Of a stretch of 64,000 nt of DNA, positions 8,727-33,184 are shown one piece after another (the stretch's first letter is position 1; every line of letters starts with the position of its first letter). The notes beneath the pieces were generated by a model. It was given only the letters and a program-made list of their open reading frames with translations, searched no databases and was not told where the DNA came from. The stretch is from a virus, in the IMG/VR virus record IMGVR_UViG_3300046535_001092, positions 33,164-97,163 of that record; one strand, given 5' to 3'. A program made the position numbers and the translations under genes.

Positions 8727-9074
8727 GTGGACAAATCGGTAGACCCTGGACAGCTGGCGATAGACCTACTGTCTAGGTCCATATGTTCCGTACAGGTCGC
8801 AGCGGTCATTGTGGATAGAAAAGGTAGCATATTCGCATGGGGATGGAATTCCTGTGGTTCAGACGGGTATGGTGAACATGCAGAATGTGCTGCCATCAGG
8901 CGGGCAAATCAACGTAGGTTAAAGCATGCTACGATATATGTGGCTGCAAGGCGTAGGGATAGGAAGTGGGACAAGTGCGTAACTGCTAAGCCCTGTCTAT
9001 CTTGTCAGTATAGACTTGATAGATGGGGTCTTAGCGTGGTATTTAGAGATGGTAAAGGAGTGTGGAATGGGTGA
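8727..9074 (+). CDS. cytidine/deoxycytidylate deaminase-like protein
   Basis: 115 residues with the zinc-dependent deaminase signature HAE at 51-53 and PCLSC at 89-93, giving the H-C-C zinc site and the catalytic Glu52. It would deaminate a cytosine nucleoside or nucleotide, or an RNA/DNA base, in the cytoplasm. The GTG start directly abuts the preceding stop. Shorter than most dCMP deaminases (about 150-180), lacking the C-terminal helices, so the substrate is uncertain. Two deoxyribosyltransferase-like proteins, MazG and a DUF5664-type gene further downstream fit a nucleotide-pool role. Confidence 0.8.
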   Translation: MDKSVDPGQLAIDLLSRSICSVQVAAVIVDRKGSIFAWGWNSCGSDGYGEHAECAAIRRANQRRLKHATIYVAARRRDRKWDKCVTAKPCLSCQYRLDRWGLSVVFRDGKGVWNG

Positions 9075-17138: not shown

Positions 17139-17465
17139 ATGAAGAAACTGTTTGTTATGTTGATGTTACTGGTAAGCACAGCTGTATGTGCTCAAAGTAT
17201 GGTCGTTACTGGAAAGGTTACAAACCTAGTCGCTGTAGCAGTAACTACAGCCGAGGGAGATCAGGTTATTGAGACAGATGTTACAGTTGTCGATTCTAAG
17301 GGGAAGGGTACTACATTTAGGGTTAGAGGAGGAGATCTGAATGGCCTAACCTTAAGAGCTAGTTACGAACAGGTTCCCAAGAAGGGCGAGAATATGAAAG
17401 TTCACCTTGCTATGAAGAACGGTCACTATAGACTAGAGCATGGTCAACAGAGTGTGGAGAAGTAA
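17139..17465 (+). CDS. secreted small protein
   Basis: 108 residues with a clear Sec signal peptide (MKKLFVMLMLLVSTAVCA, probable cut after AQS). The mature part is beta-rich, with KVTNLVAVAVTTAEG and a GKGTTFRVRGGDL turn, like OB-fold periplasmic proteins. AAGGAG nine bases upstream. Its stop shares one base with the start of the metalloprotease, so they are co-expressed; it may be a chaperone, inhibitor or immunity factor for it. Confidence 0.7.
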   Translation: MKKLFVMLMLLVSTAVCAQSMVVTGKVTNLVAVAVTTAEGDQVIETDVTVVDSKGKGTTFRVRGGDLNGLTLRASYEQVPKKGENMKVHLAMKNGHYRLEHGQQSVEK

Positions 17466-18598
17466 TGTTTAAGAAACTACTACCGATTGCTATGCTCCTA
17501 AGCTGTGTCGTTGGGCTTGGGGCTTATGTCTCAAATGGTGTATTTTGGCCCAATGTTCCTGTAAAGTATTATATTAATACGGCTAATACTTCAGGAATGA
17601 ATCCTGCCACAGTTGTCTCAGATATTCAGGCAGGAGGTAATGCTTGGGCTACACAGGCTAGCTCAGGTGCTACCCTATCTTATCAAGGTACAACAAGTGA
17701 TCCTTGCACATTTGCTTATGATCAGAAGAATCATGTGTGCTTTAGGGTAGATTCTGGTGGGTGGATTGCTTATACCCAAATCTACACATTCACTGGTCAG
17801 ACAGCTATTCTTGATGCTGATATGATTGTGAACACTACCTATCCATTATTTACAGATGATCAACAATGTAATGGTGGATATTCTATTAAGAATACAGTTA
17901 CACATGAGTTTGGACATCTGTTTGGTCTAGGTCACTCAGCTGATCCTACAGCTACAATGTATCCTACTGCTAATGCTTGTGAGACAAGCAAAGAGGTGCT
18001 ATCAGCCGATGATATTGCTGGTATCCTTTCTCTATACCCTACAGCTGGACCTCCTCCACCTGCTGCACCAGTCTTAACCTCTGTTTCTCCATCTAGTGGC
18101 GCTCAGGGTACTACAGTTCCAGTAACATTGAGTGGTTCTAACTTTGTTATTAGTGGGACCTCTCCAAATATTAGTGGTAGTGGAGTTACATTTAGCAATA
18201 TTGTAGCAAATAACACTACATCTATGACGGCTAACTTTGTGATTAGCTCAGCAGCAGTTGCAGGTGCAAGAACAGTCACTGTAACCACATCAAGTGGAAC
18301 GAGTGGAACACAGCCATTTACAGTCACGGTTCCTCCTCCACCATCTGCTCCAGCTACCCCATCTAACCCCTCACCTGCCAACATGGGTACGGTTAGACAT
18401 AACTCCAACACTACTCTCACATGGGTTGCTGCGGGAGCTACCAGATACACAGTTGTACTTGATGGAGTTGCCCACGCAGTCACCCCCGCCAGTTATAAGG
18501 CCGGTAAGGTTAGCGTAGGAGTACATACATGGTCAGTTACAGCTACTAATAACACTGGTAGCACGAATGGTCCAACCTGGACATTTACATCTAACTAA
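17465..18598 (+). CDS. secreted metzincin (matrixin-like) protease with IPT/TIG domain
   Basis: 377 residues: signal peptide (1-20), then a catalytic domain with HEFGHLFGLGH (H147, E148, H151, H157), the zinc site HExxHxxGxxH of metzincins, and a Met-turn TMYP at 164-167. Residues 205-290 form an IPT/TIG beta domain (SVSPSSGAQGTTVPVTLSG) and the last 85 a second beta-sandwich of FN3 type. It should cleave proteins outside the inner membrane. Such proteins are bacterial rather than viral, so this is likely a captured host gene for envelope penetration or lysogenic conversion. Confidence 0.85.
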   Translation: MFKKLLPIAMLLSCVVGLGAYVSNGVFWPNVPVKYYINTANTSGMNPATVVSDIQAGGNAWATQASSGATLSYQGTTSDPCTFAYDQKNHVCFRVDSGGWIAYTQIYTFTGQTAILDADMIVNTTYPLFTDDQQCNGGYSIKNTVTHEFGHLFGLGHSADPTATMYPTANACETSKEVLSADDIAGILSLYPTAGPPPPAAPVLTSVSPSSGAQGTTVPVTLSGSNFVISGTSPNISGSGVTFSNIVANNTTSMTANFVISSAAVAGARTVTVTTSSGTSGTQPFTVTVPPPPSAPATPSNPSPANMGTVRHNSNTTLTWVAAGATRYTVVLDGVAHAVTPASYKAGKVSVGVHTWSVTATNNTGSTNGPTWTFTSN

Positions 18599-22073: not shown

Positions 22074-22274
22074 ATGATAGATAGTGCTAATCAGTCTATG
22101 GGCGATAGAGTTTTTGATATCGTGGAGAAGATTCATCGACTTAGGAATGATGTTACTATGGCTAAGTTAAATGCAGCCTTTACTATGGAGTTAGAAGAAA
22201 GGCTACAGATAGCAGCTGACATTCTAACTAAGGTTGAGAAGGTCCTTATGGAAATTGAAGGCAATAATGAATGA
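22074..22274 (+). CDS. small helical protein
   Basis: 66 residues, two amphipathic helices (RVFDIVEKIHRLRNDVTMAKLN; ELEERLQIAADILTKVEKVLMEIE) forming a likely coiled-coil hairpin. Not recognised. Overlaps the Dam methylase start by 8 bases. Confidence 0.6.
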   Translation: MIDSANQSMGDRVFDIVEKIHRLRNDVTMAKLNAAFTMELEERLQIAADILTKVEKVLMEIEGNNE

Positions 22275-22755
22275 GCCTAAACATAATCGTGGGAGGAGTG
22301 TTCAAGAGGTCTGTACCCCTCATGAGTTTCTAGAAGCTCTCAAGAAGAAGCTAGGAATGAATGGCGGTAACTTCTATTATGACCTAGCAGCGACAGAGGA
22401 GAATAAGGTTACACGACTATGCTATACACCCGAGCAGGATTCCCTGGTTCAGAGTTGGTACAGTTATGGTATATGGAACTTCTGCAATCCTCCATATGGA
22501 GATATCACTCCTTGGGTCCAGAAGGCCTATCTGGAATGTAGAAACCATAATGCTCATACTGCCATGCTTGTGCCAGCAAGTGTGGGATCTAATTGGTGGA
22601 GAGATAATGTGGATGGCAAAGCCGATGTCCTCTTCCTCAATGGTCGTATTACATTCGTAGGCCATAATGCTCCCTATCCTAAGGACTGTGCTATACTTCT
22701 CTATGCTCCCTTCTTAAATGGTAACTATAGTGTATGGAGTTGGAACAATGACTAA
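22267..22755 (+). CDS. phage Dam-type DNA N6-adenine methyltransferase
   Basis: 162 residues. FYYDLAATEENKV (37-49) is the S-adenosylmethionine loop, and NFCNPPYGDITPWVQKA (71-87) contains the NPPY motif (74-77) of N6-adenine methylases, followed by MLVPASVGSNWW. This matches the phage Dam family. It would methylate adenine in phage or host DNA, possibly GATC, to evade restriction or mark DNA. No cognate endonuclease is near. Confidence 0.9.
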   Translation: MNEPKHNRGRSVQEVCTPHEFLEALKKKLGMNGGNFYYDLAATEENKVTRLCYTPEQDSLVQSWYSYGIWNFCNPPYGDITPWVQKAYLECRNHNAHTAMLVPASVGSNWWRDNVDGKADVLFLNGRITFVGHNAPYPKDCAILLYAPFLNGNYSVWSWNND

Positions 22756-22990
22756 GAAGCATGATGATTATGACTATGGTGATAACTTCGATGTCGATAG
22801 TGACTACGAAGCCTACAATGATTATATGGACTACCTAGACGAGAACGCGGAAAGATATGACCATGTAGATGGCTATAGTGTTGACCAGTATAAGGCTGAG
22901 ATTACCCTAAGACTCGTTGAGGCTATTGATGATTTCCTAACCGTAGGCACCGTCTCCGAGCTATTAAAGATTGTAGCGGAAAACACTTAA
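22748..22990 (+). CDS. acidic Tyr/Asp-rich small protein
   Basis: 80 residues from ATG 22748. The first 50 are a DYDYGDNFDVDSDYEAY low-complexity acidic run, the rest a helix. Such acidic proteins may mimic DNA; nothing decisive. Shares one base with the polymerase start (22990). Confidence 0.6.
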   Translation: MTKKHDDYDYGDNFDVDSDYEAYNDYMDYLDENAERYDHVDGYSVDQYKAEITLRLVEAIDDFLTVGTVSELLKIVAENT

Positions 22991-25785
22991 TGCTGCCTAA
23001 ACCATCTTCGTGTATTGGTTGTAGTTTATATGAGAAGCCCCACGGTAAGACTATGGGCTTCTCCATACCCTGTGGGACAGGTAGGAACGGAGTACTTATT
23101 GTAGCAGAGGCCTTGGGAGAGCACGAAGAGAAAGAAGGAATGGCCCTAGTTGGGAAGACTGGTCAGACCCTCTTCCAACAGCTAGCTAGGGTAGGGATCG
23201 AGAGGGATGACTTCACCATCTTCAACACAGTTGCATGCAGACCCCCCAATAATAAGCTTGCTAAGATGGTCTATGAGCAGGATGCTATTGCCCACTGTGC
23301 TCCTAACCTCGACAAAGCCATTGAGGATGCCCACACAATCGCTAAGGCTAATGGTAAGAACTTCGTAATATTAACTCTCGGAGTCATCGCCTTTAAGAGG
23401 GTGATGGGATTGGACTATAAGAAGGATGCGAACTTCCTTAAAGCGGATTATATTGGATACCCTCATTGGAGTGACAAGTATGCTTGCTGGGTTATGGCTA
23501 CTGACCATCCCTCTTACCTCCTACGCGGGAATACTCATCTATGGCCTGTCCTGCAGTTTGTATTTAAGCGGGCTTTGGAGATTGCTGATGGGGGCCTTAC
23601 ACTCTACGACCGACCATACGATCTAGACCCTACCCCCACAGGATTCGATGAGTGGATCAAAGGCTACGAACGTAGTCTAGTAGAGGACAAAGAGAATCCC
23701 CTCTCCTATGACATTGAAACCCCATATAAGAAGAAGAAGTCTGAGGATGACCTAGCTAATGAGGATGATGCTGATCATACAATTCTTAGGATATCTTTTA
23801 GTTATTTTAGCAGTGGAAGTACTCATACTTGTAGTATTAAATGGAGTGCTGAGTATCTGGCAGGGATTGAACGACTATTTAAAATAGCCCCTTTCGTCCT
23901 GGGGTGGAACAGTGATAATTATGATTACCCCAGAGTCTCGCGCCACGTTAAGATTCATGGCATTAGCGTTGATGGCATGGTTGCTTGGCATATTCTTAAT
24001 TCGTCTCTCCCTAAAGGACTGGGGTTCGTTACTCCATACTATGTTCAGAACACTCTGATGTGGAAGCATCTGTCAGAGTCTCAGCCTGCCTTCTACAATG
24101 CGAAGGATGCTGATATGGCCCTACAGAACTACCTAGGGATTAAGAAGGATCTGATTAGGAATAAGCTGTGGGAAGTGTTTGAGATCCATGTCCTCAGGAT
24201 CAATGAGGCCCTCAACTATATGACAGGGATTGGGGTGTTGAGAGACACCAAGATGAGGGATGAAGCAGAGCTTCGCCTGCAGGGTGTGTTAGATGGTATT
24301 GAGAAGAAGATGGAGGACGTGGTTCCTGTCGAGGCCAGGAAGCTGAAGTTCTATAAGAAGACTCCTAAGGTTATCAAGGAAGGGATGTTTGAAGTTGAGA
24401 AAGACTATCCAGTCAAATACTGCGGAGTATGTGGGGTCTATAGACCAACTAAAGGACATGCTAAAGTTTGTCCTACTTATGTTGTTGTTGAGATACTTGA
24501 GAGACAAAAGGTCTGGGCAGAACCCTTAGAGTTTAAGATCTCTAAGCTAGGCATGACCAACTACCAGAAGTCTCTCAGGCATATGGCAGTTGTTAATAGG
24601 AGAGAGCAGAAGGTTACGTTCGATGAGGATGCTATTGTTAGACTAATGAAGGACTATCCTAAGGATCCCCTTTATCCCCTCATTATTAGCCATAGGAAGA
24701 CTCAGAAACTCCTCTCCACCTATGTAGGTGTAACTCAGGAGAGTGGGAGAGTAAGGGGAGGGATGCCAGTAGGTAAGGACGGACGCATTCATGCCACCTA
24801 CACCCATAACCCATCAACATTGAGGTTTGCATGTGAAGATCCTAATTTACAGAATCTACCGAGACCTAATCCGAGTGATCCTAACGATCCTGTTAATATC
24901 ATTAGGAATCTTATTATTGCCTCTCCTGGCAATATACTTTATGCTAGAGACTTCTCTGGCATCGAGGCTGTACTCACGGGATACTTTGCCATGGACCCCA
25001 AATACATTCGTATTGCTAAGAGGGATATCCATACGTATTACACGGTGCATGCCTTATATGAGCTTGAGGGTGGGGCTAGAATAAAGGCTAGCGACCTCCC
25101 CGACCTAGACTGGCCTGATGACCGTCTATTCCCCTACCTAGAACAGCTCAAGAAAGAGTTCAAGCGGGAGAGAAATAGTCTATATAAGCATCTGGTTCAT
25201 GCTGCTAACTTCATGCAGAGTCCTAAGGGTGCTCAGGAGAAGATCTTCTCAGAGACCAGGATTGAGTATCCTATTAAGACAGTAGCAAAGGTAATGGATG
25301 TCTACTACTCTCTATTCCCGTCTATTCGTAGATGGCATAAGGCAGTGTTAGATGAGGCCGAGAAGGATGGATACTTACGCAACCCGTACGGTTACGTCCA
25401 TAGATTTTCAAAAGTCTACGACTATACGAGAGAGTATGGTGAATGGGTTAAGAAAAGTGGCCCGGATAGTAACAAGGTAATCGCGTTTAAGCCTCAGTCT
25501 ACTGCAGCTGGTATTATCAAGGAGGCTATCCTAGAGCTATTCTTCAATCGGTTTGAAGAGGCTGGTCAATACCTTAGGTTGCAGGTCCATGACGAGCTTC
25601 TTAGTGAGATTCCTAGAGGAGAGTGGGAGAGGGTAGACGGGATTATGAGAGAGGTTATGGAGAGACCTAACCCACAGATGAGGATGCCTGAGAGTTGGGG
25701 TATGGGCGAATACCTCTCAATATTGACTGAGGCTAAGGCTGACCTTTCTGAGGTTAGTCGGTGGGGGAGTATGAAAGGACTATGA
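22990..25785 (+). CDS. family 4-type uracil-DNA glycosylase fused to DNA polymerase A
   Basis: 931 residues. N-terminal ~200: C8, C11, C83 and C103 (a 4Fe-4S set), VAEALGEHEEKEGMALVGKTG (38-58) and HPS at 173-175, matching family 4 UDG. Then a DEDD exonuclease: DIET (241-244), GWNSDNYDYP (305-314) and YNAKDADM (369-376). C-terminal polymerase palm: DFSGIEA (D654), KHLVHAANFMQSPKG (K733, H737) and QVHDELL (H867-D868-E869). One chain would remove uracil, proofread and copy DNA. Motif B has H where PolA usually has K-x-x-x-F/Y. A C-x-x-C pair near 478 also suggests a small zinc site. Length exceeds normal PolA. Confidence 0.9.
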   Translation: MLPKPSSCIGCSLYEKPHGKTMGFSIPCGTGRNGVLIVAEALGEHEEKEGMALVGKTGQTLFQQLARVGIERDDFTIFNTVACRPPNNKLAKMVYEQDAIAHCAPNLDKAIEDAHTIAKANGKNFVILTLGVIAFKRVMGLDYKKDANFLKADYIGYPHWSDKYACWVMATDHPSYLLRGNTHLWPVLQFVFKRALEIADGGLTLYDRPYDLDPTPTGFDEWIKGYERSLVEDKENPLSYDIETPYKKKKSEDDLANEDDADHTILRISFSYFSSGSTHTCSIKWSAEYLAGIERLFKIAPFVLGWNSDNYDYPRVSRHVKIHGISVDGMVAWHILNSSLPKGLGFVTPYYVQNTLMWKHLSESQPAFYNAKDADMALQNYLGIKKDLIRNKLWEVFEIHVLRINEALNYMTGIGVLRDTKMRDEAELRLQGVLDGIEKKMEDVVPVEARKLKFYKKTPKVIKEGMFEVEKDYPVKYCGVCGVYRPTKGHAKVCPTYVVVEILERQKVWAEPLEFKISKLGMTNYQKSLRHMAVVNRREQKVTFDEDAIVRLMKDYPKDPLYPLIISHRKTQKLLSTYVGVTQESGRVRGGMPVGKDGRIHATYTHNPSTLRFACEDPNLQNLPRPNPSDPNDPVNIIRNLIIASPGNILYARDFSGIEAVLTGYFAMDPKYIRIAKRDIHTYYTVHALYELEGGARIKASDLPDLDWPDDRLFPYLEQLKKEFKRERNSLYKHLVHAANFMQSPKGAQEKIFSETRIEYPIKTVAKVMDVYYSLFPSIRRWHKAVLDEAEKDGYLRNPYGYVHRFSKVYDYTREYGEWVKKSGPDSNKVIAFKPQSTAAGIIKEAILELFFNRFEEAGQYLRLQVHDELLSEIPRGEWERVDGIMREVMERPNPQMRMPESWGMGEYLSILTEAKADLSEVSRWGSMKGL

Positions 25786-26192
25786 TTTATTTAATAGGTA
25801 GTCTAAGGAATCCTAAGATCCCTGAGATAACTAATAGACTAAGTGAGGCTGGACATGAAGTGTTCTCGGATTGGTATGCTGCTGGAGAGCATGCTGATGA
25901 TGCTTGGAGGGATTATGAAAAAGGTAGAGGTAGAAGTTACATCCAGGCTCTTAGAGGATATGCTGCGAAGAACGTATATGAGTTCGATAGAAGGCACTTG
26001 GAGAGAGCGGATACTGTTATCCTGGCTGCCCCTGCCGGTAAGTCTGGTCATCTTGAACTTGGCTGGGCGTTGGGACAGGGTAAGAATGGTTATTACCTCC
26101 TTGACTCGCCGGATAGATGGGATGTAATGCTACAGTTCTGCACAGGAGTATACACAGATATTGAGGACTTAATAGATGAACTTAAAGATTGA
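25782..26192 (+). CDS. nucleoside 2-deoxyribosyltransferase-like protein
   Basis: 136 residues from ATG 25782 (ATGA overlap with the polymerase). IYLIGSLRNPKI (2-13), DWYAAGEHADDAW and a closing SGHLELGWALGQGK (E near 92) match the N-deoxyribosyltransferase fold, which swaps bases between deoxynucleosides or hydrolyses dNMPs. Joined to the polymerase operon, it may remodel the dNTP pool or make a modified nucleotide. A related but distinct gene is at 28361. Confidence 0.8.
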   Translation: MIYLIGSLRNPKIPEITNRLSEAGHEVFSDWYAAGEHADDAWRDYEKGRGRSYIQALRGYAAKNVYEFDRRHLERADTVILAAPAGKSGHLELGWALGQGKNGYYLLDSPDRWDVMLQFCTGVYTDIEDLIDELKD

Positions 26193-26322
26193 CCTCCTCC
26201 CTATTGCAATGAACACATGTATGACCTTTGGTTATGCCTATAAAGGTAATGAGCCTGGGAAGACAGTCTATTGGTTAGGTGCGACTGTGATTACCCTCGG
26301 TCTATATATGATGAAAGGATAA
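26176..26322 (+). CDS. 48-residue membrane protein
   Basis: ATG 26176 inside the end of the preceding gene; two short hydrophobic stretches (IDLLPIAMNTCMTFGYAY; VYWLGATVITLGLYMM). The wording FGYAYKG...KTVYWLGA resembles a short family common in phages. Inner-membrane protein, function unknown. Confidence 0.55.
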   Translation: MNLKIDLLPIAMNTCMTFGYAYKGNEPGKTVYWLGATVITLGLYMMKG

Positions 26323-26324
26323 GC

Positions 26325-26570
26325 ATGCCGTATATTGGAGTGGATAGAAGGGCGGCTCTAATTAATGGAGCACCTATGGAGACCCCAGGCGAATTAAACT
26401 ATATGATTACCAGCCTAATATTAGAGTATCAGGGGCTGAAGGGGTTGTCGTACCAGACAATTAATGATATAATCGGTGCCCTAGGCGGGGCCTCCCATGA
26501 GTATTATCGAAGAGTGGCTGTGCCCTACGAGTATCAGAAACAGTTAGATAATGGAGATGTATTTCTATGA
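26325..26570 (+). CDS. conserved small phage protein
   Basis: 81 residues from ATG 26325 (MPYIGVDRRAAL). The pattern ETPGELNYMITSLILEY-x-SY-x-NDIIGALGGASHEYYRRVAVPYE is a widely seen phage/prophage protein of unknown function, usually near nucleotide-metabolism genes. ATGA overlap with the next gene. Helical. Confidence 0.7.
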   Translation: MPYIGVDRRAALINGAPMETPGELNYMITSLILEYQGLKGLSYQTINDIIGALGGASHEYYRRVAVPYEYQKQLDNGDVFL

Positions 26571-26905
26571 AGATTGCATTCAGTTCTGCACCGTTCGGTA
26601 AGGTTGGAAGTGATGACTTTAAACAGGTAGGGGAGCTTATTGCTCAGCCTAATGGCTACTCGATTCTTAAGTGGGGTCCAACCACAGGGAATGGACAGTC
26701 TCCCATCAACCCAGGCACCATCTTAGGAATCAATCCTGAGGGGGTATATTCGGCAGGGGATGCCTCCCTTATTGGTAATGGGCAGCAGTTCAAGCTTGTG
26801 AGCGGCTCACTTGTTATTAGGCCTAATATTAACATTAATGATGGGTCTATTCTTATTCCTGGGGCACCTACGGTAGCGTATGTGATTGCCGCTAGGGAGC
26901 TATAA
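26567..26905 (+). CDS. beta-rich protein, tandem paralogue 1
   Basis: 112 residues. MKIAFSSAPFGKVGSDDFKQVG is nearly repeated in the next gene (MKLLFSSVPFGKAGSDDFKQVG), as is the end (YVIAAREL). Gly/Asn/Pro-rich turns and RPN strands indicate a beta sandwich. Shares one base with its paralogue. Precedes a glycoside hydrolase, so carbohydrate binding is plausible. Confidence 0.65.
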   Translation: MKIAFSSAPFGKVGSDDFKQVGELIAQPNGYSILKWGPTTGNGQSPINPGTILGINPEGVYSAGDASLIGNGQQFKLVSGSLVIRPNININDGSILIPGAPTVAYVIAAREL

Positions 26906-27210
26906 TGAAGCTCCTCTTTAGTTCAGTGCCATTTGGTAAGGCCGGGAGCGATGATTTCAAACAAGTAGGGGATACTCAGCCTAATGGAACAGTGCAGTGG
27001 GGACCTACTGATGCGAATGGCAGGGTACCTAATAACCCCCAAACGGTGTTAAGTGTCCAGCCTGATGGGGCTTATCAGACGAGACCACTAGGGTCTAATG
27101 GCCCATTTGAGGTCATGAAGTTTACCGGCTCTGAGTTGATTGTTAGACCTAATACAGGGGACTTTGGTGGCCCCACCACTGGGTATGTGATTGCAGCGAG
27201 GACATTATGA
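26905..27210 (+). CDS. beta-rich protein, tandem paralogue 2
   Basis: 101 residues, about half identical by eye to the preceding protein, ending GPTTGYVIAARTL. Overlaps the hydrolase start by ATGA. The duplicated pair may be carbohydrate-binding accessory modules encoded beside the hydrolase. Not recognised. Confidence 0.65.
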   Translation: MKLLFSSVPFGKAGSDDFKQVGDTQPNGTVQWGPTDANGRVPNNPQTVLSVQPDGAYQTRPLGSNGPFEVMKFTGSELIVRPNTGDFGGPTTGYVIAARTL

Positions 27211-28361
27211 GTAATAGTTTGATTCTTCTATCAGGGGGTAGTGGGGGAGGGGGTGGAAATGCAGGTCAAAAGGGTAGGATCTGGATTGATAACCTAGTCT
27301 TCAGGGATGCCTCAGGAGCCATTTGGCCTTGGAGAGGGGTAACAGCCTTTACCCTCTATTTGAAGTGGCTACAGGGCAGGGAAGGGGCTGTAGACCCCCT
27401 CCTAAGCAACTGGCTAGCCAACTGTCCAGGTCTCAACGTGGTTAGGGTCCTAGGGATGGTCAATAGCTTCGCACACCTCCATCCTCAGGAGTGGCCTGAC
27501 TACTACTCCCAACTTAAGCCCTTCGCCGACCACCTACTCAATGTGTGGGGGATCCGGGTGGAGTTCGTTATCTTTGCAGATAGCGGGGATATCATGCCAG
27601 ATCCTAACCAGCAGAATGTTCATGCCTCCATTATAGTAGATACCCTAAGTGGGTGTGAGAATGTCTTCATCGAGGTTGCTAACGAGCCTTCACAGCATAC
27701 TAACCTGGATGGTGGGGATGCTAGAGCCTTTGATATCTACTATAGTATTAGAAGTAGAGGGTTGCTGGTGGCTACAGGGGCTGGAGATGGAGATTATCCT
27801 GGTGACTATATCACTGTCCATACTCCTAGAGATGATCAGTGGCCTAGAAAGGCTAAGGATCTCCTAGATGTCAGAGACATTACTCATAGTCCATGTGTGG
27901 GGGATGAGCCTATGGGCTGTGCAGAGGTCTTCATTGATGGTAAGAGAGACACCAACCCACGCAACTTTGCTGATTATGCCGCTACTGCTCAGTTAGAGGG
28001 AGCAGGAGCCACCTTCCACTCAGACGCAGGGATCAATGGGGAAGTCTTTGGACCTGTGACGGCTGCATGCGCTAAGGCATGGTTCGCAGCGGCTGCCTGG
28101 GTACCACCTCAGGCTCAGCTGGAGCAGTTCCTACGTGGACAGGTCAACACCCCATGTATGTGGACTCATGCCCCAGGAGATGAACCTGGACCCTGCCAGC
28201 ACGATGATAGTATCGAGATTAGAAGCTATGGTAAGATCATCGGGAGTGAGTGCTGGGTTACTCAGGTTCAGACCCAGAGAGCTAGTCCTACCGTATGTGG
28301 TGGGTGGGCTATTGATAGTGTTGGACCCTCAACTGGTCTGACTAAGTTTAGGAGAGTTTGA
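27207..28361 (+). CDS. GH5/clan-A-type glycoside hydrolase-like protein
   Basis: 384 residues. After a glycine-rich start (SGGSGGGGG) a TIM-barrel-like sequence follows: WRGVTAFTLYLKW, NVVRVLG, VEFVIFADSGD (near 115), FIEVANEPSQHTNL (near 155-168) whose NEP resembles the acid/base of clan GH-A, and ATGAGDGDY. It likely cleaves a polysaccharide, possibly as a depolymerase. No signal peptide. Located outside the structural block, so it may act in the cytoplasm or be injected. The nucleophile Glu is not identified with certainty. Confidence 0.65.
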   Translation: MSNSLILLSGGSGGGGGNAGQKGRIWIDNLVFRDASGAIWPWRGVTAFTLYLKWLQGREGAVDPLLSNWLANCPGLNVVRVLGMVNSFAHLHPQEWPDYYSQLKPFADHLLNVWGIRVEFVIFADSGDIMPDPNQQNVHASIIVDTLSGCENVFIEVANEPSQHTNLDGGDARAFDIYYSIRSRGLLVATGAGDGDYPGDYITVHTPRDDQWPRKAKDLLDVRDITHSPCVGDEPMGCAEVFIDGKRDTNPRNFADYAATAQLEGAGATFHSDAGINGEVFGPVTAACAKAWFAAAAWVPPQAQLEQFLRGQVNTPCMWTHAPGDEPGPCQHDDSIEIRSYGKIIGSECWVTQVQTQRASPTVCGGWAIDSVGPSTGLTKFRRV

Positions 28362-28774
28362 TGAAAATATATATTGCAGGGCCTTGGGTCCAGAAAGAGG
28401 ACATTGCTAAGATTGCTTTACAGGTTGAAGCCGAAGGCCATAAGATTACCCATAAGTGGTGGGAAGTAGAGAATGGTGAAGAGTTAGAGGCTAATAGAGA
28501 GCCTGCAGAGCTAAGAAGGCAGGGACAGCTAGACCTAGCAGGTGTAATGAATGCTGATACTGTTCTGCTAATTAATAGTATGAAGAGTGAGGGTAAGGCT
28601 GTTGAACAGGGTATTGCCTTAGGGCAGGATATACCTATCATTGCTGTGGGTAAGAGAGGGGAACACTCTAATAACGTATTTCATTACCTACCTAACTATA
28701 GATGGGTTGATGATGTTGAACATGCCATTGAAGAACTTCAGTGGATTGATGCTGTAAAGGGGATGAATGTCTAA
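28361..28774 (+). CDS. second deoxyribosyltransferase-like protein
   Basis: 137 residues. KIYIAGPWVQKEDI (2-15), HKITHKWWE, and a closing GKAVEQGIALGQDIPIIAVG have the order of the 2-deoxyribosyltransferase/DUF4406 fold; D-x-A-D-T-V-L is the conserved strand. Sequence differs clearly from 25782, so substrates may differ. Followed by MazG and a dNTP-hydrolase-like gene. Confidence 0.7.
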   Translation: MKIYIAGPWVQKEDIAKIALQVEAEGHKITHKWWEVENGEELEANREPAELRRQGQLDLAGVMNADTVLLINSMKSEGKAVEQGIALGQDIPIIAVGKRGEHSNNVFHYLPNYRWVDDVEHAIEELQWIDAVKGMNV

Positions 28775-29087
28775 GGATCTATTAGCTAAACATTATGACG
28801 AAGTCGTGAGTAAGACCTGGAACTATGCACATAGATGTGAGACCGAGAGGGACCATACTACTAATGCAGTCCTAGGGTTGGTGGGTGAGGCTGGTGAGGT
28901 AGCTGATGCCCATAAGAAGCTATGGTTCCATGCCCCCAAGGATAGATTACATGATATCAAGCTAGAGTTAGGGGATGTTCTCTACTATCAGTCCAAGCTC
29001 CATAATATTTATGGGGTGACTATGGAGGAGTTGCTGGCTATGAACAAGGCTAAGTTGTTTGAGCGATATGAGGTTATTTCCATTTGA
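28767..29087 (+). CDS. MazG-like nucleoside triphosphate pyrophosphohydrolase
   Basis: 106 residues. GLVGEAGEVADAHKK (37-51) and ELGDVLYYQSKL (72-83) are the metal-binding E-x-x-E and E-x-x-D motifs of the MazG fold. It would convert NTPs or dNTPs to monophosphates. ATG overlap with the previous gene (8 bases). Together with its neighbours it points to remodelled nucleotide pools or ppGpp control. Confidence 0.85.
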   Translation: MSKDLLAKHYDEVVSKTWNYAHRCETERDHTTNAVLGLVGEAGEVADAHKKLWFHAPKDRLHDIKLELGDVLYYQSKLHNIYGVTMEELLAMNKAKLFERYEVISI

Positions 29088-29103
29088 AGGTAGGAGGATG
29101 TCG

Positions 29104-29592
29104 ATGGCGTACACACAGGATCTAGAGAGAATCACTAACCCCAAGCAAGATGAGACCTCCAAACCTTCCAACCCTAAGGACATCATAGGGAGTGATAAGC
29201 TCCCTTTACACCTTTGGCCGGAGACAGCTACCGCGATGGGCTGCCTCGGCCTTTTGGATGGGATGCTCAAGTATGGCAGGAACAACTGGAGAGCCGTGGG
29301 AGTCAGGCCATCTATCTATGTAGATGCTTTGAAGAGACATGTGAATGCGTGGTTCGACGAGGGGGAGGAGATGGACCCAGACTCTGGCCTACCTCACTTA
29401 GCGCATGCACTAGCCTGCCTAGCAATCATCGTAGACTCCCAAGCTACAGGTAATATGAATGATGATAGGATGATTAGGGGAGGCTACCGAAGGTTGGTGA
29501 ACACCCTCACCCCTCATGTTAAGCGCCTAAAGGATCTACATAAGGACAAGAGTCCATATCACTATAGTATTAAGGATAACAAAGATGTTTGA
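29104..29592 (+). CDS. DUF5664-type protein (predicted dATP/dGTP diphosphohydrolase-like)
   Basis: 162 residues from ATG 29104; AGGAGG at 29092-29097 gives a spacing of six here and zero for the other ATG at 29098. KPSNPKDIIGSDKLPLHLWP, GMLKYGRNNW, DALKRHVNAWFDEGEEMDPDSGLPHLAHALACLAII match the DUF5664 family, annotated as dATP/dGTP diphosphohydrolase-like. It probably acts on nucleotide pools with MazG. Function within phage not established. Confidence 0.7.
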   Translation: MAYTQDLERITNPKQDETSKPSNPKDIIGSDKLPLHLWPETATAMGCLGLLDGMLKYGRNNWRAVGVRPSIYVDALKRHVNAWFDEGEEMDPDSGLPHLAHALACLAIIVDSQATGNMNDDRMIRGGYRRLVNTLTPHVKRLKDLHKDKSPYHYSIKDNKDV

Positions 29593-30727: not shown

Positions 30728-31045
30728 TCAACTGGCTGGGGGAACGCTTGTCGAGGGGGATCGCTTCTTTCTGGGCTTAGTTAGATTGAATGGGGTAACG
30801 GACTTAATCATAGCCCGAGGAATGAAGGTACGGCCACGGAAGACATCATGGCCGTCCTGAGTTGATCGTTCATTAGCTACGCTTACCCCTATTGCATCCT
30901 CTTGGATAAGCCAGCCCATTGTTTCTACCGGCATAGGCTCATGGGTAGAGATGATTCCATGAGCGGTTGTGAAGTTCTCCTGATCCTGCCAAGCATCATC
31001 CCAAATCACGACTACGAACTGTCGCTTGACTGTTGGAGAGGTCAT
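30728..31045 (-). CDS. conserved phage hypothetical protein
   Basis: 105 residues: VVVIWDDAWQDQENFTTAHG, STHEPMPVETMGWLIQEDAIGVSVANE and FRGRTFIPRAMIKSV. This layout (D-A-W, TxGWL-x-D, GRTFIP) occurs in many phages with unknown role. Shares one base with the exonuclease gene; a basic C-terminal tail (KPRKKRS). Not assigned. Confidence 0.65.
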   Translation of the reverse strand: MTSPTVKRQFVVVIWDDAWQDQENFTTAHGIISTHEPMPVETMGWLIQEDAIGVSVANERSTQDGHDVFRGRTFIPRAMIKSVTPFNLTKPRKKRSPSTSVPPAS

Positions 31046-31815
31046 TAGAGCACCCGAGTTGTGGTAGCTGCAGTCTCAGGCTTAACTGTTCTGAACCATC
31101 CCCCACACCCCTGGCACTGGAAGCGTTGGTAGATCCTAGAGATAGCCTTATGCACCCCTCTAGACTGGACCTTCTTCGAGCCGCATCTCGGGCATCCTTC
31201 GGTCTGACCGAACAGCTGTCTATTGATATGGTTCTGGCAGAAGGGCTGGAGCTTCTGGAATACCTTCTTTAGAAGTACCACATCTTGTTTGTTATATGTG
31301 ACCATCTCCTTGATGGCCTTAGGGTCACCTTTCAAGGCTCCTAACCATAGACCCTTAGTTGTTTGGATCTTCCTGCCTAGTCCTAGGTAGTGACCTAGAT
31401 AGTCTAACTTATTTGAGTTAAACTTGAAGCGATTCTTAGCAATCTTATACGTGTCTATGGAGGGGATAACAGGTAGAGGTGAGAGTCCATGGAACAGCAT
31501 GCGGGTTTCAACATACTTGGTATCGAAGCTATCACCGTTGTGAGCCACGAGACAATCGGCTGAGGATAGAACTTCATGTAACTTCTCACATACTCCCTTA
31601 TCGTTATGTGGATCTTTCTTAAACATGCTAGGGAAGTCTAGTAGGGAGACTGAGTGTACCTTCTCCTCACCTTCCCACTGCCATGCTGCTGAGATTAGAT
31701 GTCTCTCCTGATAGATATTGGAGGGATCAATGAAATCGTTATATTTAAGGTCGAAGACCGATACTAGTTCTAACGAAGTCTCGATATCCCAATACAATAC
31801 TCTAGGTTTTGCCAT
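31045..31815 (-). CDS. DEDD-family 3'-5' exonuclease with zinc ribbon
   Basis: 256 residues. WDIET (D10, E12), AHNGDSFDT (D98) and YNKQDV (Y174, D178) give the DEDDy exonuclease motifs; residues 218-242 carry CPRCGSKK...CQGCGG, a zinc ribbon. It would trim DNA or RNA ends, or proofread separately from the polymerase. Start at 31815 with AAGGAG six bases upstream and promoter 31848-31876. Separate from the + strand replication set, which is odd for a replicative exonuclease. Confidence 0.8.
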   Translation of the reverse strand: MAKPRVLYWDIETSLELVSVFDLKYNDFIDPSNIYQERHLISAAWQWEGEEKVHSVSLLDFPSMFKKDPHNDKGVCEKLHEVLSSADCLVAHNGDSFDTKYVETRMLFHGLSPLPVIPSIDTYKIAKNRFKFNSNKLDYLGHYLGLGRKIQTTKGLWLGALKGDPKAIKEMVTYNKQDVVLLKKVFQKLQPFCQNHINRQLFGQTEGCPRCGSKKVQSRGVHKAISRIYQRFQCQGCGGWFRTVKPETAATTTRVL

Positions 31816-32559: not shown

Positions 32560-33184
32560 TTTGTTTCCTAGAGGCTAAGAGTTGAAGCATGATCTCACGG
32601 GCATTGGGAGGGAGTTGGTTAGGGATACCAAAGGTTCTATGTCTAGCTATCTGTCCAGCTTCTTCAGGGGTCTTCTCATCTCCATAGCCAGCAGCGTGTG
32701 CGGCTTCATGTACCACAGTGGGGAGGAGTTCTCCTGGGTTTGTTCCTACATGGTCAAGAGGTAGGTCTGAGGGGTGACCTTGTGCAGATATGCGAGGATT
32801 AAGGCTGATACTAGAGGGCCATAGACCAAACTTAGTTGTACCTAGGAGGTTGAGCTTGGGGAAATCCTCAGGCTTCCACTTAGTATTATTCTCCTCATTA
32901 GACCTATCTATGTAGTGCATAGCATCGTCTGTGGGGCCATACTGGACCTTACCAATCATCCCTTGGAGTGATGGAGCAAACCTTAGAAGCTGTTGGATGA
33001 TCCTAGAGGCATCTGCTCCATTGACTGTGGGGAGAGGCTGGAAGTTGGAGGCATTAGGGACAAGGGCATGATCTTCCCCACCTGGCATAGTGACGGTGTT
33101 TATGCGGGGCAAAGCCAGTTTCTGCTTACCTGTGGGTTCGTCTAGGATCTCTAATAGACGTTGAGTGTTAGGACCTTGGGGCAT
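32549..33184 (-). CDS. putative zinc metallopeptidase of the structural block
   Basis: 211 residues. LPTVVHEAAHAAGYGDEKTPEEAG (near 153-176) has HExxH with a third ligand-like G-Y-G-D-E, a zincin pattern. No signal peptide. The N-terminal half is loop-rich and resembles other phage structural-operon proteins. It could process virion proteins, or cleave peptides in the envelope during injection. Confidence 0.65.
   Translation of the reverse strand: MPQGPNTQRLLEILDEPTGKQKLALPRINTVTMPGGEDHALVPNASNFQPLPTVNGADASRIIQQLLRFAPSLQGMIGKVQYGPTDDAMHYIDRSNEENNTKWKPEDFPKLNLLGTTKFGLWPSSISLNPRISAQGHPSDLPLDHVGTNPGELLPTVVHEAAHAAGYGDEKTPEEAGQIARHRTFGIPNQLPPNAREIMLQLLASRKQNAK

Follow-up and report, generated by a model that had tools for sequence, protein, structure and literature searches.

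One open reading frame in the viral DNA analysed here encodes, according to alignment and structure modelling, a uracil-DNA glycosylase (UDG) domain, a 3'–5' exonuclease and a family A DNA polymerase (PolA) in one chain of three domains, with the catalytic positions of all three kept. The UDG–exonuclease–PolA fusion is already known, and the protein described here is a good new example of it; what is added here is the intact set of UDG residues in the window protein and its two closest relatives (the window clade), as against the eroded domains of SPO1 and of PaBG, the latter being the subject of the only published analysis found. Two further additions are that the UDG stays with the exonuclease in the split-gene proteins tested and that replicases of family C carry a UDG as well. 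The favoured reading, with a probability of roughly 0.6, is that of a replicative phage polymerase of family A with its own exonuclease and a tethered glycosylase of the UDG superfamily that would remove uracil near the fork. The window, i.e. the whole stretch of 64,000 nucleotides analysed, comprises positions 33164–97163 of a 97,163-base IMG/VR virus record, and its relevant features are listed in Table 1.

Table 1. Coordinates in the window of the polymerase gene, its domains and motifs, and genes of nucleotide metabolism
Feature	Position	Strand	Basis
UDG – 3'–5' exonuclease – family A DNA polymerase gene	22990..25785	+	ORF, Pfam, phrog_17, AF2
UDG domain, aa 1–200 (Pfam core aa 34–182)	22990..23589	+	PF03167, TIGR00758, PDB UDG matches
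C8 and C11, first two Cys of predicted [4Fe-4S] site	23011..23022	+	alignment of 80 relatives
UDG motif A, aa 40–46 (EALGEHE; E40, E46)	23107..23127	+	alignment of 80 relatives
N79, catalytic Asn position, and C83, third Cys (NTVAC)	23224..23238	+	alignment of 80 relatives
C103, fourth Cys	23296..23298	+	invariant in 80 relatives
H173-P174-S175, UDG motif B (HPS)	23506..23514	+	alignment of 80 relatives
3'–5' exonuclease, about aa 206–400 (D241, E243, D312, Y369, D373)	23605..24189	+	invariant acids; Klenow alignment
Cys/His insertion C478-X2-C481-X8-H490-X3-C494, aa 478–494	24421..24471	+	alignment, 26 PolA sequences
Family A thumb/palm/fingers, about aa 546–931 (D654, E659, K733, H867-D868-E869)	24625..25782	+	PF00476; alignment
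Fingers motif B, unusual, aa 728–742 (K733, H737, F741, M742)	25171..25215	+	alignment
Nucleoside deoxyribosyltransferase-like gene	25782..26192	+	phrog_12607 E=6e-16; ATG overlaps polymerase stop
Second nucleoside deoxyribosyltransferase-like gene	28358–28774	+	
MazG	28767–29087	+	
dATP/dGTP diphosphohydrolase-like gene	29059–29592	+	
Cytidine/dCMP deaminase-like gene	8727..9074	+	PF00383 E=7.9e-11

One reading frame, three domains

A preliminary description made from the sequence had placed a UDG, an exonuclease and PolA in a single frame and in that order, and had named a stop codon between the parts as one of two results that would undo the claim. The gene is an uninterrupted frame of 931 codons with an ATG start and zero internal stops, and the order is borne out by Pfam UDG and DNA_pol_A matches on one chain, by the acidic residues of the exonuclease and by a model that aligns with Klenow. 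The same full-length frame recurs in two independent contigs, L002 (68% identity) and L022 (65%), which excludes an assembly artefact, and the same architecture occurs in cultured phages; nothing was found in favour of a chimeric assembly or a chance ORF, an explanation whose probability is negligible.

The polymerase assignment is supported by PF00476 (DNA_pol_A; E=1.6e-30, 106.8 bits against a cut-off of 34.3), which places the protein in family A, and by phrog_17 (phage DNA polymerase; E=1.3e-54), matched by aa 29–900 over profile positions 476–1219 with the UDG part included. Among solved structures, the remainder of the chain after aa 200 matches Klenow-type polymerases. D654, E659, K733, H867 and D868, corresponding to the motif A Asp, the motif B Lys and the motif C His-Asp, are invariant in 26 PolA sequences. 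The exonuclease profile PF01612 stays below the Pfam threshold in the 931-aa protein; the acidic residues of DnaQ/Klenow-type Exo I–III are present (D241, E243, D312, D373), three of them (D241, E243 and D373) being invariant in 45 aligned sequences.

Structure prediction for the full chain, proposed earlier as a check, bears out this arrangement: AlphaFold2, run from a 45-row alignment of relatives, gave a confident three-domain model (pLDDT 86.7, pTM 0.83) that aligns with Klenow (1kfd) from residue 206, corresponding to Klenow residue 324 onward (Z 31.7, 517 residues, rmsd 4.7). From residue 205 the model matches Pol I large fragments including their exonuclease domain, with Z of about 28–32; the PDB matches listed by the structure search are polymerases covering aa 205–931, and the best viral models in Foldseek include several phage polymerases of 820–1050 residues, aligned over most of the chain.

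Two features set the window clade apart within the polymerase part. A CX2CX8HX3C insertion, which looks like a small zinc site, sits between exonuclease and palm, and of the 26 PolA sequences none but the window protein, L002 and L022 has C478, C481 and H490. The same three carry a His in motif B of the fingers, at the position presumed to correspond to E. coli Phe762, where the other 23 sequences have Phe (18) or Tyr (5); in addition, Phe occupies the position taken to be that of Tyr766, where 22 sequences have Tyr, and Met or Leu replaces the Gly that follows. This unusual motif B may alter nucleotide selection.

The glycosylase domain

Residues 1–200 had been proposed to be a UDG, and the profile and structure databases agree. 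PF03167 (UDG) matches aa 34–182 with E=5e-15 and 56.2 bits against a curated cut-off of 24.3, placing the domain in the UDG superfamily, and a phmmer search of aa 1–200 against the PDB returned UDGs and one phage polymerase only, the best match being 4zbx (E=6e-15). The fold assigned to the UDG part rests on sequence matches together with the high local pLDDT of the model. The four cysteines and the HPS motif noticed at the outset are likewise in place, as C8, C11, C83 and C103, in register with relatives in the CX2C...C...C order of family 4 UDGs, and as residues 173–175. E40, E46, N79 and H173 align with E41, E47, N80 and H155 of Tth UDG, which are taken to be the catalytic residues of that enzyme.

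These eight positions align with those of both stand-alone and fused relatives; all are retained by the window protein, L002, vir526, ctfzr933, ctLwi270, Rctr197k and phiLo, and in nearly all of the best 80 IMG/VR relatives. Cysteines align with C8 and C11 in 30/31 fused, 29/29 split and 20/20 other relatives, the lone exception being a gap, and C103 and the HP of motif B are invariant throughout, with HPA in L002 and L022. E40 and E46, and likewise N79 and C83, are invariant in 80/80 relatives, but each of these pairs overlaps one of two search patterns that biased the counts towards intact motifs, so that only those for C8, C11, C103 and H173 are unbiased.

Two features of the sequence speak against the favoured reading. 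Motif A deviates in the window clade: the window reads AEALG for GEAPG and has L53 for Phe, L022 has VGEALG with the Phe, and the replacement of Pro by Leu at position 42 is shared by the clade and a few other relatives. The family 4 model TIGR00758 (UDG_fam4, NCBIfam) matches with E=9e-18 but reaches only 64.5 bits against a curated cut-off of 125.3, for which reason the domain is called here a UDG domain carrying residues of the family 4 type, and not a family 4 enzyme. With all cysteine and catalytic positions kept, the domain nevertheless looks catalytically equipped and is probably active. Membership of UdgX was considered and rejected: the KRRIH loop, presumed to be the marker of UdgX, is absent, and TIGR03914 scores 33.3 bits against 189.95.

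Between window and L002, identity is 68% in the UDG, 75% in the exonuclease, 73% in the polymerase and 51% in the middle segment (aa 401–545), with dN of 0.26, 0.21 and 0.24 for UDG, exonuclease and polymerase, respectively; synonymous sites are saturated, and a dN/dS ratio is accordingly not given. Judged by these values, the UDG part is about as constrained as the polymerase.

Distribution of replicase-linked glycosylases

The preliminary description implied that the fusion was unique, which does not hold: a three-domain UDG/exonuclease/PolA protein was modelled in print in 2020 for PaBG gp205 and related jumbo phages (PMC7412058), SPO1 gp31 and many GenBank phages carry it, and a solved example exists (PDB 9qhs). 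The PaBG report was the only paper on the fusion that the literature search found, and the search returned none describing 9qhs. The Pfam architecture was confirmed for SPO1 gp31 (N-terminal part), LysYB1, phiLo, vir526, ctfzr933, Rctr197k, ctVRi840, PMBT14 and Serbin. The only match in bacterial genomes is a distant UDG of stand-alone type (30% identity), and no close relative was found there.

Among the best 80 UDG relatives in IMG/VR, PolA follows in the same ORF in 31 and in a later ORF in 29, whereas the strand concerned lacks PolA at the other 20 loci, so that 60/80 are linked to a replicase by fusion or by a split operon. The split genes overlap by 4–20 bases in about a dozen of the 29 cases, and the upstream protein carried UDG and exonuclease together in all four tested. 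A scan seeded with PolA found a UDG in only 6/80 loci; the link is thus common among phage UDGs of the window type, not among phage PolAs. In the UDG tree the window groups with L002 and L022 (100/100), and the PolA-fused state changes at least seven times on well-supported branches.

UDG domains also occur on replicases of family C (DnaE). A C-terminal UDG follows PHP, pol III alpha, finger and HHH domains in L072:671-4465, in L097:26-4492, an ORF that also carries an intein, and in Pseudomonas phage nickie (L108:2184-5576); L049:51-1646 is a 5'-truncated HHH and UDG piece, and L106 and L107 were picked up by similarity to the L072 C-terminus. The tree unites these six UDGs (92/78) and separates them from the PolA-fused domains. 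In L013/L096:1123-1677 with flanks and in L095:2061-4531, a DnaE-like ORF has a stand-alone UDG gene directly behind its end or overlapping it; behind this gene, L013 has a DnaQ-like exonuclease ORF and an ORF resembling the rest of DnaE.

Genomic setting

The polymerase gene shares bases with both neighbours, its ATG with the stop codon of the preceding ORF (TAATG) and its stop codon with the ATG of the gene that follows (ATGA), indicating a tightly packed operon, and a cluster of nucleotide-metabolism genes extends behind it over 25782–29592 (+). The deaminase-like gene pointed out earlier at 8727 is recognised by PF00383, and the records of L002 and L022 each have a single match to that family too; a dUTPase was detected in none of these three records. 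A deaminase without a detectable dUTPase is compatible with uracil stress or raised dUTP during infection, and is not diagnostic of either. Neither a dUTPase nor thymidylate synthases were found in the record, which may be incomplete, and this lends no support either way to a genome of uracil-DNA. A Z-genome, suggested by MazG, the diphosphohydrolase and weak similarity to DpoZ, was rejected, with no PurZ/adenylosuccinate synthetase in the record or in those of the two relatives, as was an aminoadenine polymerase DpoZ (NF038380, 30.7 against 500 bits).

Several other genes of the window merit mention. A Dam-type N6-adenine methyltransferase gene (PF05869, E=4e-26) lies upstream of the polymerase at 22234–22755 (+), and a similar-looking ORF precedes the polymerase in L002 and L022. 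A separate second exonuclease gene, present despite the polymerase's own exonuclease, lies at 31045–31815 (-) and matches phrog_403 'DNA polymerase exonuclease subunit' (E=6e-69) and RNase_H_2. The adjacent small genes at 26567–26905 and 26905–27210 (+) are clearly duplicated and share FSS.PFGK.GSDDFKQVG, and the product of 17465–18598 (+) is, unusually for a phage, a matrixin-like (M10) metalloprotease, which begins with a signal-like segment and also has a TIG-like domain.

Function and alternative explanations

Uracil is normally removed from DNA by a free enzyme or by one recruited through the clamp. In the favoured reading, the UDG domain would bind an Fe–S cluster and cleave uracil from DNA, removing at or near the fork the uracil that enters by dUTP misincorporation or cytosine deamination, and tethering would allow repair to begin with the replicase at hand. 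The UDG may work as a unit with the exonuclease, given that PolA lies in a later gene in 29/80 relatives and that the four upstream proteins tested carry both. An abasic site in the template stalls or blocks polymerases, and taking uracil out of the template before the fork arrives would produce just such a site. The suggestion in the preliminary description that the polymerase would avoid copying uracil is plausible, but post-replicative clean-up or fork-linked repair is at least as likely; excision on nascent or re-annealed DNA would be more plausible than excision directly ahead of the fork. Neither of two Pfam families of AP endonuclease tested was found in the 97-kb record, and host enzymes would thus be needed to finish repair of the excised site.

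The loss of key residues from the fused UDG of SPO1 and PaBG implies that a role besides catalysis can maintain the domain, and the retention of the fusion in these phages is the main reason for keeping, beside the catalytic reading, the rather unlikely explanation that the UDG is mainly a DNA-holding or processivity module of the poxvirus D4 kind, its catalysis secondary or a relic. SPO1 gp31 and PaBG gp205 keep the domain despite having lost the cysteines and some or all catalytic residues. The poxvirus UNG, a glycosylase that serves the viral polymerase as processivity factor, offers a precedent, with conflicting data on the need for its catalysis (PMC10253040). Pure holding would not require the catalytic and cysteine positions, all of which are kept in the window clade and in nearly all of the 80 relatives. 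A tethered position beside the exonuclease would also suit a uracil sensor, one that halts the polymerase by binding or cleaving uracil in the template, with an effect like that of the read-ahead pocket through which archaeal family B polymerases stall at template uracil (PMC3950489); that mechanism is a binding pocket rather than a glycosylase, and a base excised before the fork arrives would leave an abasic obstacle, which makes a sensor improbable.

There is a similarly slim chance that the substrate is a modified pyrimidine or its precursor (hydroxymethyl-dU, hypermodified thymines), the UDG policing base composition. UDG–PolA genes stand beside thymidylate-synthase-like and/or dCMP-deaminase genes in SPO1, LysYB1, PMBT14, Serbin and ctfzr933, and the deaminase and thymidylate-synthase-like genes occur in 5/42 and 6/42 UDG-linked loci, respectively, against 0/45 UDG-less PolA loci (Fisher p 0.023 and 0.010), counts that are only a hint, being confounded by relatedness and including one thymidylate synthase seed (PaBG) translated out of frame. 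The split-gene class is almost devoid of these genes, and the 97-kb record gave no match to either thymidylate synthase family.

Uracil removal by a tethered glycosylase remains the preferred reading for the window protein. A broader proposal, put forward tentatively and at clearly less than even odds, is that family A and family C replicases of phages, which are unrelated to each other, may have separately acquired a catalytically competent Fe–S-type UDG, forming a replisome-bound base-excision unit for removing uracil at the fork, usually joined to the proofreading exonuclease in family A and C-terminal in family C, with the window protein as an intact case of the former.

Comparison with known systems

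PaBG gp205 and its counterparts in jumbo phages of the Lupandier group carry the same N-terminal UDG, 3'–5' exonuclease and PolA in one protein (PMC7412058). In the alignment almost nothing of the active site is left in the PaBG UDG, the cysteines and catalytic residues that the window protein keeps being absent. SPO1 gp31 likewise has an N-terminal UDG (PF03167, E=2e-22) followed by exonuclease and PolA, but none of the four Cys ligands and a Ser at the position of N79, whereas the window protein has the ligands and N79; PDB entries of UDG/UdgX proteins bear the title 'Phage SPO1 DNA polymerase-related protein'. The Thermus phage phiLo polymerase (PDB 9qhs; solved chain, phiLo residues 34–1175) resembles the window protein in its UDG, exonuclease and PolA and in retaining the cysteines and the E/E/N/H set, but is longer (1175 aa), with long inserts in the alignment and 19% identity. 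The polymerase of vir526 (Caudoviricetes sp., methanogen virus; DBA35002.1, phrog_17) shares the three domains and the intact UDG residues, and differs from the window protein, to which it is 22% identical, in lacking the Cys/His insertion and in having the canonical APG and Phe in UDG motif A.

Poxviruses use a family B polymerase, and D4 is a family 1 UDG not known to have an Fe–S site. The resemblance is one of working principle, a viral replicase with a UDG physically attached, D4 being a separate subunit bound via A20 (PMC10253040), unlike the one-chain window protein.

Together these proteins form a natural series, from intact UDG domains (window clade, vir526 and phiLo) to eroded ones (SPO1 and PaBG), with UDG and exonuclease split from PolA and UDG carried on DnaE as further arrangements. 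If the replicase has its own glycosylase, a single protein would allow a direct test of how excision is coupled to synthesis, and a comparison of the intact, eroded, split and DnaE-linked forms would show what selection keeps: catalysis, the holding of DNA, or both.
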